Source: Cognatundibacterium griseum (lineage in GTDB: Bacteria > Pseudomonadota > Gammaproteobacteria > Burkholderiales > Burkholderiaceae_D). From it: DNA of 64,000 nt. The stretch covers positions 558,001 through 622,000 of the forward strand of contig NZ_JACOGC010000002.1 of NCBI RefSeq assembly GCF_014284195.1. Direction: 5' to 3'. The notes beneath the pieces were generated by a model that saw nothing but the letters and a program-made list of their open reading frames with translations, ran no database searches and was not told where the DNA came from. Shown one piece after another: positions 4,554 to 62,225 of this stretch. Made by a program: the position numbers and the translations under genes. The stretch's first letter is position 1, and the number at the start of each line of letters is the position of its first letter.

Positions 4554-4626
4554 GGGGGAGTATCTTTCAAAAATGCTCTGATGCCCAGGTAAATTGCGGG
4601 CTGTTTTTTATACTCCCCTCCAGTAT
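4554..4626. repeat. Paired G-run/C-run motif element, copy 1 (upstream of nadA)
   Basis: GGGGGAGTAT at 4554-4563 and ATACTCCCCTCCAGTAT at 4610-4626 form an inverted repeat (GGGGAGTAT/ATACTCCCC). The span is 73 bp and the centres of the two runs are 62 bp apart. Copy 3 at 60974 has the same 73-bp span and matches at 47 of 73 positions without gaps, the identity being concentrated at the two ends. The ATACT-N7-AGTAT site resembles operators of CsoR/RcnR/FrmR-type repressors. It ends 64 bp before the nadA start, so a role in nadA control is possible but unproven. Confidence 0.6.
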
Positions 4627-39107: not shown

Positions 39108-39519
39108 GGGTCGATAAAGTGGTGTGCCGGGGTATCAGTCTGAGACTTGGAAGAACAGACTTTATTTTCAGTTGCTGATGTGCGTAATCATTCTGATTTT
39201 TGCATAAGCAGCAGAGTTACTTTCTATAAGGTATCAAAATTCAGATGGCCTGGGGCATTTGCTTGTTATCTGATGTTCAGCGAATTTCACCTTTGTGTTT
39301 GGATGCCAGAGGATGTTAGCGCGTGCGTTTGACCTGTTCGTGACATCGGGGCAAGCCGGAGCAGAGTGAAAATATAAATTAAATATATACTCCCCCATTA
39401 TTTTTCATGAAATGACTGAATGTCCTAATGAATATTGGGTGGAAAATATATACTGGGGGGAGTATGTTGGCGTTCTGTTTGTGTAATCATTTTTAATGTA
39501 ATTGCAGCGAGGGATCAGG
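39108..39519. other. 412-bp divergent intergenic region upstream of metC
   Basis: No gene is supported here. A 61-codon open frame at 39147-39332 shows no family signature. The region contains the paired-motif element (39387-39465), AT-rich stretches on both sides of it (ATATAAATTAAATATATAC), and a Shine-Dalgarno GAGGGATCAGG just before metC. It presumably holds promoters for both the binding-protein gene and metC. Confidence 0.5.
39387..39465. repeat. Paired G-run/C-run motif element, copy 2 (upstream of metC)
   Basis: ATACTCCCCC at 39387-39396 and ATACTGGGGGGAGTAT at 39450-39465 form an inverted repeat (ATACTCCCCC/GGGGGAGTAT). The run centres are 63.5 bp apart. Compared with copies 1 and 3 both sites are flipped: the left boundary ATACTCCCCCATT is the exact reverse complement of the left boundary of copy 3. 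TACT-G6-AGTA is close to the published RcnR-type operator (TACT-G6-N-AGTA). The element ends 54 bp before the metC start. Confidence 0.62.
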
Positions 39520-40710
39520 ATGAACGGTGAATCAAAGAAACTACCAGGCTTAACTACTGGCCTGTTGCATCATCCATACACGGCACCGGCAGGTTTTTCG
39601 GCATTTCCTGAGGCAATTCACCATGCTTCTACGGTTTTGTTCGACAGTGTGGCTGCCATGCGCGCCAGAAACTGGCAGGACAAATCGGCATATACCTATG
39701 GTCTGCATGGCACGCCAACCAGTTTTACGCTGGAAGCGCGGCTGGCAGCGATTGAGGGTGGACAACATTGTCTGCTGGCGCCGAGCGGCCTGGCCGCAAT
39801 CATGTTGGTGGATATGGCACTGCTGAGCAGTGGTGACGATGTGCTGATTCCCGATAATGTCTATGGTCCGAACCGGGAACTGGCCCTCTGGCTCAGTCAG
39901 AATTTCGGCGTCAGCGTCCGTTTTTATCCCCCGCTCATTGGCGCGGACATTGCCGGACTCATTCAGGAAAACACCAGGCTGATCTGGACAGAGGCGCCGG
40001 GTTCGGTATCAATGGAGGTGCCGGATATTCCTGCTATCTGTGCTGCTGCGCATGCGCGTGGAGTGCTGGTGGCTCTGGATAATACCTGGTCAGGCGGGAT
40101 CGCGTTTCAGGCATTTCAGCATGGGGTGGATATCAGCATGCAGGCATTGACCAAGTACCAGAGCGGTGGGTCAGATGTGTTGATGGGGGCGTTGATTACC
40201 CGTGACAAAGATTTGAATCAGCGATTGCAAATGGCGCATATGCGCTTGGGAATGGGCGTCGGCATGGATGATGTCTATCTGATTTTACGTAATTTGCCGA
40301 CACTGAAACTCCGCTTCGAAGCGCATGACAGAAGTGCCACAGAGATTGCCCGCTGGCTGAGTGCGCGTCCGGAAATTCATAAAGTGCTGCATCCTGCATT
40401 GCCTGATTGTCCGGGGCACGATATCTGGAAACGTGACTTCACAGGCGCAGGCGGTTTATTTTCGGTGTTATTTAATCCTGCACTGAGCGAAGCGCAGACG
40501 GATTGCTTTGTCGAGAGCCTGCATTTGTTTAAGATTGGATTCAGCTGGGGTGGGGCGCATAGCCTGTGCGTTCCTTACCGTATCCGGCAGATGCGTTCTC
40601 AGTGGGAAGAGCAGGGTAACCTGGTTCGTTTCAATATAGGACTGGAAGAAACTGAAGACTTGATTGCAGACATTGAGCAGGCGCTGGACAGGATGAAAAA
40701 AACCGGCTGA
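39520..40710 (+). CDS. metC: Cystathionine beta-lyase (PLP-dependent)
   Basis: A 396-residue Cys/Met-metabolism PLP enzyme that cleaves cystathionine to homocysteine. SAYTYGLHGTPTSFTLEARLAAIEG, the cofactor-contacting APSGLAAI, NTWSGGIAF and the PLP lysine in ALTKYQSGGSDVLMG are diagnostic, and the C-terminal IGFSWGGAHSLC separates MetC from gamma-synthases. ATG 39520 follows GAGGGATCAGG. It stands alone rightward, with the paired-motif element in its promoter region. Related lyases of this subgroup may prefer other sulfur substrates. Confidence 0.92.
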   Translation: MNGESKKLPGLTTGLLHHPYTAPAGFSAFPEAIHHASTVLFDSVAAMRARNWQDKSAYTYGLHGTPTSFTLEARLAAIEGGQHCLLAPSGLAAIMLVDMALLSSGDDVLIPDNVYGPNRELALWLSQNFGVSVRFYPPLIGADIAGLIQENTRLIWTEAPGSVSMEVPDIPAICAAAHARGVLVALDNTWSGGIAFQAFQHGVDISMQALTKYQSGGSDVLMGALITRDKDLNQRLQMAHMRLGMGVGMDDVYLILRNLPTLKLRFEAHDRSATEIARWLSARPEIHKVLHPALPDCPGHDIWKRDFTGAGGLFSVLFNPALSEAQTDCFVESLHLFKIGFSWGGAHSLCVPYRIRQMRSQWEEQGNLVRFNIGLEETEDLIADIEQALDRMKKTG

Positions 40711-60535: not shown

Positions 60536-60942
60536 TGAAACTGAATTCTTTATTAATGCGTGCCGTATGGTGCTGTGCCGCTGTTTATCCCGCACAGTGG
60601 TCGTATGCCGGGGAGCAGCCGGACGAGCTGAAAACCATTGCGACTCTGGTACGTGCCATGGATGCACAATACCCCGTTAACAGCATTCACACCAACGAAG
60701 AAGCTGAAACCATTGTCGCGCAGAGTGAGGGGCTGCAACAGCGTTTACAAAACTGGTATGTATCGGCTGAGCGTCATTGCTACGATTTGTTTTTTGTAAA
60801 TAATTGCCTGAAACAAATTAAAATCGACCGCCGGGAATATTTGCCGATTCTGCAACGCATGGAAATCGAAGCGAAGGCCGTGCAGCGCCAGTTGCGGATC
60901 ATTGCCCGCGATCAGGAACTGGCAAAGAAACAGACGAAATAA
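60535..60942 (+). CDS. Exported helical protein of unknown function, coupled to zapE
   Basis: A 135-residue protein with a signal-like start (MKLNSLLMRAVWCCAAVYPAQWSYA-GE) and a mainly helical mature part. RHCYDLFFVNNCLKQIKIDRREYLPILQRMEIEAKAVQRQLRIIARDQELAKK contains two Cys, likely disulfide-bonded, and a long amphipathic helix. No named family. Its ATG overlaps the zapE stop by four bases, so it is translationally coupled; a periplasmic role next to a division ATPase is possible but unproven. Confidence 0.75.
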   Translation: MKLNSLLMRAVWCCAAVYPAQWSYAGEQPDELKTIATLVRAMDAQYPVNSIHTNEEAETIVAQSEGLQQRLQNWYVSAERHCYDLFFVNNCLKQIKIDRREYLPILQRMEIEAKAVQRQLRIIARDQELAKKQTK

Positions 60943-60973: not shown

Positions 60974-61046
60974 GGGGGAGTATCTGCTGATTTTGGCTGT
61001 ATCTCCTGGATAATAGCAGGGTTTTCAGGATACTCCCCCCCAGTAT
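60974..61046. repeat. Paired G-run/C-run motif element, copy 3 (convergent gap)
   Basis: GGGGGAGTATC at 60974-60984 and GATACTCCCCC from 61029 form an 11-bp perfect inverted repeat; the right site is ATACT-C7-AGTAT (61030-61046). Span 73 bp and centre spacing 62 bp equal copy 1. It lies between two 3' ends (the gene at 60535 and the leftward aminotransferase at 61065), so it is not an obvious promoter element here. Confidence 0.62.
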
Positions 61047-61064: not shown

Positions 61065-62225
61065 TCAGAGTATTGCCAGACGACGTAATGCTTCGTGTAA
61101 AGTGGCATCCTGCTTGGCAAAACAGAAGCGCACAATTCCCGACTCTTTTCCTTGCCGATAAAAAGCGGACACCGGAATCGCTGCAACACCGGCCTCAGTG
61201 GTCAGCCAGCGCGCAAAGTCCAGTTCCGGCAGAGATGAAATCGCGCTGTAATCAACACTTTGGAAATAGGTTCCTGCGCATGGCAATAAGCGGAAACGAG
61301 TCTTTTGCAGGCCTTGCCGGAATAAATCCCGTTTTTTCTGATAAAAAGCAGACAGTTCCAGATAAGGAGCCTGATTTTGCATGTAATGCGCCAGTCCGGC
61401 CTGCATCGGGGTATTGACGGTAAAGACGTTAAACTGATGGACTTTGCGGAATTCCGCCATCAAAGCTGCCGGAGCGGCCACATAACCGACTTTCCAGCCT
61501 GTTACATGATAAGTTTTTCCAAAACTGGAAATAATGTAGCTGCGCTCAGCCAGTTCCGGATAGCGTGCCAGCGATTCATGACGCATGCCGTCGAAAACCA
61601 TGTGTTCGTACACTTCGTCAGAGGCAATCAGTAACCTGGTGCCCCGCACAATCTCGCAGAGTGCGCTGATATCTGCCGCTGTCATGACAGAACCGGTCGG
61701 GTTGTGCGGTGAATTTAGCATCAACAGACGGGTTTTGTCACTGATTTTGGCCTTAATCTGGCCCCAGGGGATGCTATAACCTTGTTCATCTAATTCCATG
61801 CTGACCAGTACCGGAACACCACCAGCCAGCCGGATCGAAGGGATATAACTGTCGTAAGCCGGTTCAATCACAATAACTTCATCACCCGGATGGACACAGG
61901 CCAGCAGCGTGGTCAGGATGGCCTGGGTTGCTCCGGCTGTCACTGTGATTTCTGTGGCAGGATCGTAACGCTGGCCATACAGGCTGACGATCTTATCGCT
62001 GATCTGTTGTCGGAAAGCAGGCAGCCCCGGCATAGGCGGATACTGGTTCAGACCTTCCTGCATGGCCCGCGTGACTGCCGCTGGCAAGGCCGGATCACAG
62101 TCAAAATCAGGAAATCCCTGCCCGAGATTAACGGCTTTTTTCTCTGCCGCCAGTGCCGACATGACTGAGAAAATTGTGGTGCCGATTTCTGGTAATTTGG
62201 AAGGAGGAAGAAAACTGACAGTCAT
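61065..62225 (-). CDS. PLP-dependent aminotransferase (methionine/aromatic type, YbdL-like)
   Basis: A 386-residue class I/II aminotransferase. KKAVNLGQGFPDFDCDPAL, the cofactor block AGATQAI, MLNSPHNPTGSVM, ASDEVYEHMVFDG and the PLP lysine in SSFGKTYHVTGWKVGYVAAP are diagnostic. Similarity in pattern is to YbdL-type methionine aminotransferases, which pass amino groups from Met, Phe or Tyr to 2-oxo acids; kynurenine-type activity cannot be excluded. It stands alone, leftward; upp lies upstream on the same strand. Confidence 0.88.
   Translation of the reverse strand: MTVSFLPPSKLPEIGTTIFSVMSALAAEKKAVNLGQGFPDFDCDPALPAAVTRAMQEGLNQYPPMPGLPAFRQQISDKIVSLYGQRYDPATEITVTAGATQAILTTLLACVHPGDEVIVIEPAYDSYIPSIRLAGGVPVLVSMELDEQGYSIPWGQIKAKISDKTRLLMLNSPHNPTGSVMTAADISALCEIVRGTRLLIASDEVYEHMVFDGMRHESLARYPELAERSYIISSFGKTYHVTGWKVGYVAAPAALMAEFRKVHQFNVFTVNTPMQAGLAHYMQNQAPYLELSAFYQKKRDLFRQGLQKTRFRLLPCAGTYFQSVDYSAISSLPELDFARWLTTEAGVAAIPVSAFYRQGKESGIVRFCFAKQDATLHEALRRLAIL

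Follow-up and report, generated by a model that had tools for sequence, protein, structure and literature searches.

Positionally conserved paired sites between Undibacterium genes and a candidate DUF156-family binder

The window, by which we mean the whole stretch of 64,000 nucleotides that was analysed, corresponds to positions 558001-622000 of contig C12 in a 3.6-Mb genome of 19 contigs (G000). It contains three short intergenic elements, each made up of a strong site, a second box (box 2) and the interior between them. Their parts are listed below in order of position.

4554-4563, minus strand: box 2 of element 1, reading ATACTCCCCC on the minus strand, 62.5 bp from the strong site, centre to centre
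4564-4609, no strand: interior of element 1, in the gap that separates nadA (starts 4691) from a PepO-like gene (ends 4454)
4610-4626, plus strand: strong site of element 1, ATACTCCCCTCCAGTAT, found at the same place in the relative G012
39387-39396, plus strand: box 2 of element 2, ATACTCCCCC, 63 bp from the strong site, centre to centre
39397-39449, no strand: interior of element 2, upstream of a cystathionine beta-lyase gene (39502-40710), in a divergent gap
39450-39465, minus strand: strong site of element 2, ATACTCCCCCCAGTAT on the minus strand, found at the same place in G012
60974-60983, minus strand: box 2 of element 3, reading ATACTCCCCC on the minus strand, 62.5 bp from the strong site, centre to centre
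60984-61029, no strand: interior of element 3; the gap is convergent, with an ORF ending at 60942 on one side and, on the other, an aminotransferase gene (61065-62225, minus strand)
61030-61046, plus strand: strong site of element 3, ATACTCCCCCCCAGTAT, found at the same place in G012

The three pairs lie where an earlier note on this DNA had placed them. Copies 1 and 3, both 73 bp long, are identical at 47 of 73 positions, as the note had reported, and copy 2 is 79 bp long. The distances given there as 62, 63.5 and 62 bp were close, but became 62.5, 63.0 and 62.5 bp when remeasured from centre to centre. With at most one mismatch allowed, GGGGGAGTAT was found seven times in the window, as compared to 1.6 ± 1.1 times in shuffled sequences, and six of the seven matches are parts of the three pairs. 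The window holds no DUF156 gene, again in agreement with the note; the genome has two such genes (PF02583), both located elsewhere. Searching the window with Rfam at gathering thresholds returned only a sucA RNA motif (RF01070; 53144-53226, plus strand, 84.8 bits) and two tRNAs.

A genome scan, as proposed in the note, placed the strong site far above the control. The pattern ATACTCCC-N1-5-AGTAT gave 89 matches (47 forward and 42 reverse), which correspond to 83 places because six perfect palindromes were counted twice, whereas the reversed pattern gave no match in the whole genome. A family confined to the three window copies is ruled out by this count. All 83 strong sites are accompanied on one side by box 2, as ATACTCCCC or in complement, with 61.5-64 bp between the two centres; the match is exact in 68 cases, with one mismatch in 11 and two in four. 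At equal distance, box 2 is direct in 48 elements and inverted in 35 (in the frame of this analysis), and the G-tract of the strong site occurs in either polarity. The arrangement previously described as always an inverted repeat therefore holds for the three copies in the window and fails for the family as a whole. Across the family, there is a weak interior consensus and the outer ends are sharp, with information at background level about five bases outside the strong site. In 60 of the 79 polar cases, the locally G-rich strand is the one with the G-tract of the strong site; there is no such bias for box 2. We set aside replication polarity of the tract as a sign of function, as mutational skew can determine the strand of a free G/C tract.

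The pairs extend well beyond this genome. Using patterns that accepted any core and centre distances of roughly 52-82 bp, we obtained 47 + 38 matches in the window's genome, one of them at a DUF156 gene, and 17-191 pairs per genome in 15 of 43 Undibacterium genomes; the reversed-pattern controls across the 43 genomes gave no match, except for one in G042. The complete listing for U. aquatile (G002) showed two classes of direct pairs that differ by one helical turn: of 85 such pairs, 75 have a distance of about 62-63.5 bp and the other 10 one of about 73-73.5 bp. Of the 54 inverted pairs, 53 are at 62-63.5 bp. Among 22 relatives scanned with the inverted pattern, G064 had 53 pairs and seven genomes, four of them Collimonas, had one each. 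The DUF156 protein of G064 is the same as that of Undibacterium G023 in the protein tree. Three Collimonas pairs with a distance of 62 bp (L341:4021-4098, L342:4063-4140 and L343:3976-4053) are all located upstream of a lepA-like gene; the Collimonas DUF156 genes have no self-operator, and the genomes carry a single pair each. The interior consensus differs between species. It is a palindrome in G036 (TTGTCCA-N9-TGGACAA), where the strong-site core is not G/C-rich and the spacing is still 62.5-63.5 bp, suggesting that a second protein may take part at the elements of this genome.

Comparison with the close relative G012 showed that 65 of the 83 elements, including all three in the window, have a G012 element locus at the same place, with flanks that are mostly 89-95% identical; for the other 18, no locus passed the pairing rule (one matched on one side only). 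Conservation at orthologous loci, on which the earlier note had made its reading depend, was thus observed. The G012 loci were nearly all chosen by the strong-site pattern, with only one of the 65 pairs coming from a stretch picked by position, which biases the conservation of the strong site, and box 2 alone was therefore used as evidence. Box 2 differed at 17 of 584 positions (2.9%), as compared to 1392 of 9902 positions (14.1%) in other intergenic DNA and 506 of 2857 positions in the element interior. Thus, the boxes rather than the interior are under constraint, and the interior evolves as fast as or faster than its surroundings.

Positions are also shared at greater distance. On contig C10, 18 of 22 known elements match a U. 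aquatile element locus, with identities of mostly 70-82% and with both flanks matched in 14 cases. In all 15 pairs in which both elements were recognised, three of which have one matched flank only, the two members have the same orientation and box type, and most interiors have diverged; in the other three of the 18 pairs one member had no regex match. One site that is not shared is the U. aquatile element L278, for which the corresponding gap in the window's genome has no element. Box 2 of this element (L278:1500-1580) lies within an apparent intrinsic terminator, and the window's genome keeps a terminator-like stem at this place.

All 83 elements are intergenic according to a codon-usage gene finder made for this analysis, with 56 in tandem, 21 in convergent and 6 in divergent gaps, element 2 of the window being one of these six. 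The expected numbers, taken from 77 non-focal gaps of at least 90 bp at the element loci and in the window, were 40 tandem, 9 convergent and 33 divergent by room and 55, 9 and 19, respectively, by count of gaps. The element is closer to the upstream stop codon in 37 of the 56 tandem gaps. Some sites lie just upstream of genes, including two in the window. Neighbouring sites are spaced over-regularly in three of four genomes (G000, G012 and G002); the first two, having most sites in common, are not independent in this test. For 89 sites in G000, a single gap was shorter than 5 kb, as compared to 9.4 expected, and the CV was 0.67 against 0.96 ± 0.10; the 83 strict sites only gave a weaker regularity (CV 0.84 against 0.99 ± 0.10, P 0.046). 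The test covered 135 of the 139 G002 matches, four on short contigs being left out, as was one G012 place for the same reason. Regular spacing was absent in G036 among the matches listed (100 of 145 inverted and none of 24 direct).

The two DUF156 genes of the genome differ in their relation to the pairs. One of them (L002), located on contig C10 at about 59.45-59.78 kb, encodes a protein of 110 amino acids whose PF02583 domain scores 61.9 bits against a curated cut-off of 22.8, which places it in the family. The best solved relatives of this candidate binder are CsoR and InrS chains and a putative cytosolic protein, and its closest DUF156 genes among named relatives are from Undibacterium. 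The conserved sensor Cys is nearly invariant in 24 orthologues, and the next ligand position, judged by eye from alignments with the solved relatives, is not His. A DUF156 gene with the element motif in its promoter, which the earlier note had suggested looking for, is found here: the two boxes of L002, ATACTGGGTAGAGTAT and GATACTCCCC, straddle the start of the gene at a distance of 73 bp, which is one helical turn more than the 62.5 bp of the elements. The other gene (L001) was rejected as the likely binder, since its operator, which reads ATAGTATAGGGGGGTATC and is FrmR-like, differs from the pairs. Its neighbour is an rcnA-like gene for a Ni/Co exporter, which contains a long His-Asp repeat (L001:492-1749; C12 at about 480.3-481.6 kb).

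Gene and pairs occur together. An L002 orthologue (E below 1e-20) is present in 26 of the 43 Undibacterium genomes, including all 15 with at least 17 pairs, and the 17 genomes without an orthologue have no pair, except for one match in G017 (P = 5e-5, ignoring kinship). The boxes of the gene are 72-73.5 bp apart in 14 of the 15 network species, site 1 not being recognised in G026. Their distance ranges from 30 to 116 bp in the 11 low-copy species; it says little in G022, G040 and G041, where box 2 of the gene has diverged too far, and is 72 bp in low-copy G031 as well. This species (L104) groups with the network species G034 in the protein tree and has only three pairs, and box 2 of its DUF156 gene has diverged; loss or change of specificity is a possible reading. 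The tree of this 110-residue protein is compatible with a single origin or with multiple origins of the network. More widely, a TACT-N6/7-AGTA site is found near the DUF156 gene start at 23 of 80 loci of named genomes, mostly Undibacterium, and also in Solimicrobium, Sapientia and Glaciimonas; it was found at none of the Massilia loci among the 80. The residues D-T-P-P are encoded by box 2 of the gene, which may be partly coding, as its sequence is exact in 5 of the 11 low-copy species besides 13 of the 15 network species. With ranks of 1, 9, 4 and 18 of 61, the D-T-P-P codons vary less than most, and the evenness of codons is only suggestive. The role of box 2 within the gene is probable rather than proven.

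Taken together, the type of site, the two boxes at the gene and the joint occurrence and geometry across species point to a DUF156 protein as the likeliest binder. Our preferred reading, to which we assign a probability of roughly 0.55, is that the pairs are bipartite sites of a single DUF156 (CsoR/RcnR/FrmR-family) protein encoded outside the window and that its job is architectural. One tetramer would probably sit on each box, that is, on the strong site (ATACT-N6/7-AGTAT, with a G/C tract in this genome) and on the one-sided second box six helical turns away, and the two complexes would act jointly on the intervening DNA, by wrapping or looping. RcnR is reportedly a precedent for this, from work of Iwig and Chivers in 2009. 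Two such complexes, bound to the same face of the DNA, would leave the pattern observed: distances that are equal in either orientation and fall into two classes differing by one turn, boxes under constraint, a drifting interior and no covariation. The same protein is predicted to control its own gene via these two boxes, which are separated by an additional turn at the gene. The placement and spacing of the sites suggest a chromosomal rather than a promoter role. Since the positions are intergenic and mostly outside promoters, and short gaps are avoided, we consider it likeliest that the about 90 sites of this genome would anchor or mark points of the chromosome rather than switch neighbouring genes.

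The same evidence for the binder would serve a large conventional regulon, in which the DUF156 protein on the pairs controls adjacent genes as a repressor, a roadblock or a 3'-end regulator. The family is made up of repressors, and elements 1 and 2 sit 50-65 bp upstream of nadA and the cystathionine beta-lyase gene. However, divergent gaps are depleted by either expectation, convergent gaps are enriched, where no promoter is expected, elements in tandem gaps tend towards the upstream stop, and neighbouring sites avoid each other, so that we regard such a regulon as unlikely, if still a serious contender. The idea of paired operators for a DUF156 repressor, raised in the earlier note, is accordingly well supported as regards the binder, by the site type, the boxes of the gene and the co-occurrence, but not as regards operators of neighbouring genes, in view of the avoidance of divergent gaps and the location near gene ends. 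That another DNA-binding protein occupies the pairs and the DUF156 gene is merely one of its targets would agree with the interior consensus varying between species and being palindromic in G036. This is improbable, as the site type, the presence together with the gene and the spacing at the start of the gene itself all point to the DUF156 protein.

The note had also considered a miniature inverted-repeat element and a structured RNA. Dispersed copies with sharp ends and a weak interior consensus, and the U. aquatile element place that lacks an element in the window's genome, are what a miniature transposable or REP-like family spreading in intergenic DNA could leave behind. Such a family would be expected to show position turnover and similarity of whole copies, whereas here positions are largely shared, interiors have diverged and boxes have been kept. 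Places, orientation and box type are common to distant species, constraint falls on the boxes and not on the interior, box 2 flips independently at a fixed distance, and short gaps are avoided. We therefore disfavour mobile repeats and consider them very improbable. A structured RNA or bidirectional terminator would account for the preference for convergent gaps, the closeness to stop codons and single copies with perfect interior stems or with a terminator over box 2. Against it, no covariation was seen in 71 G000 elements (12 of the 83, with other spacing, were left out) or in 89 G036 elements, taken from 100 listed strings of 145 matches after removal of incomplete strings and several with 16- or 18-base cores. 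In addition, the G/C tracts of the two boxes are unable to pair in 27 of the 79 polar-core elements, Rfam has no match at the sites, and the three window copies have no terminator-like match. The RNA reading is thus not supported, and we find it scarcely credible.

Returning to the architectural reading, a broader scenario can be put forward tentatively, at somewhat less than even odds: a CsoR/RcnR-family repressor would have become an architectural protein of the chromosome in Undibacterium, with two tetramers six turns apart wrapping or looping about 80 bp at 17-191 dispersed, positionally conserved intergenic sites, and with a version one turn longer at its own start. If true, species with the gene alone, with the gene and a self-operator, and with the full network would trace the turning of a local repressor into a genome organiser, so that the natural emergence of a chromosome-wide network of sites could be followed through intermediate species. 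The DUF156 family would also gain a new role, with a member that has about 90 conserved pairs, most of them outside promoters. Because the geometry is strict, at 62.5 or 73 bp, wrapping or looping can be tested in vitro on short DNA.

Among known systems, REP/BIME and MITE-type repeats are numerous, short, intergenic and located near gene ends, and the elements described here resemble them in these respects. They differ in that the boxes are constrained while the interior drifts, positions are conserved across distant species, short gaps are avoided and a DUF156 gene is linked to them.

The closest relatives in site type are the operators of RcnR and FrmR. The RcnR operator has two TACT-G6-N-AGTA sites, and type 1 sites consist of AT-rich inverted repeats, spaced 6-9 bp, that enclose a single G/C tract (PMC3902906, PMC7055735). 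FrmR requires its inverted repeat, and two tetramers bind (PMC5016687). The DUF156 proteins treated in the literature consulted are sensors of metals, persulfide or aldehyde at a few promoters. Common to these operators and the pairs are TACT...AGTA inverted repeats with a core of 6-7 bp, often a G/C tract, two sites in joint use and self-regulation of the DUF156 gene, which is predicted here. The pairs agree with type 1 sites in part: they have the repeat and the spacing, and the G/C tract is found in the strict G000 sites; the strong-site core in G036, which has no such tract, and several self-operators, with cores such as CAGTAG, depart from this type. Furthermore, there are about 90 dispersed, intergenic pairs here as compared to one promoter for RcnR or FrmR, and the second box is one-sided, in either orientation, at a fixed spacing of 62.5 bp.

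Within the literature searched, whose coverage mostly excluded subscription journals, we found no DUF156/CsoR-family protein with genome-wide sites or a chromosome role, and no report of these Undibacterium intergenic repeats. Dispersed networks of sites have been described for Noc, with about 70 sites, SlmA, with 24-52 sites, and MatP (PMC4726725). In both cases, tens of conserved sites of one protein, here a candidate protein, are dispersed over the chromosome and are not mainly the promoters of a regulon. The sites of Noc, SlmA and MatP are single palindromes, whereas those described here are pairs six turns apart and linked to a DUF156 protein. A dispersed site network of one protein is already known as a kind, while the protein family and the paired geometry appear to be new.
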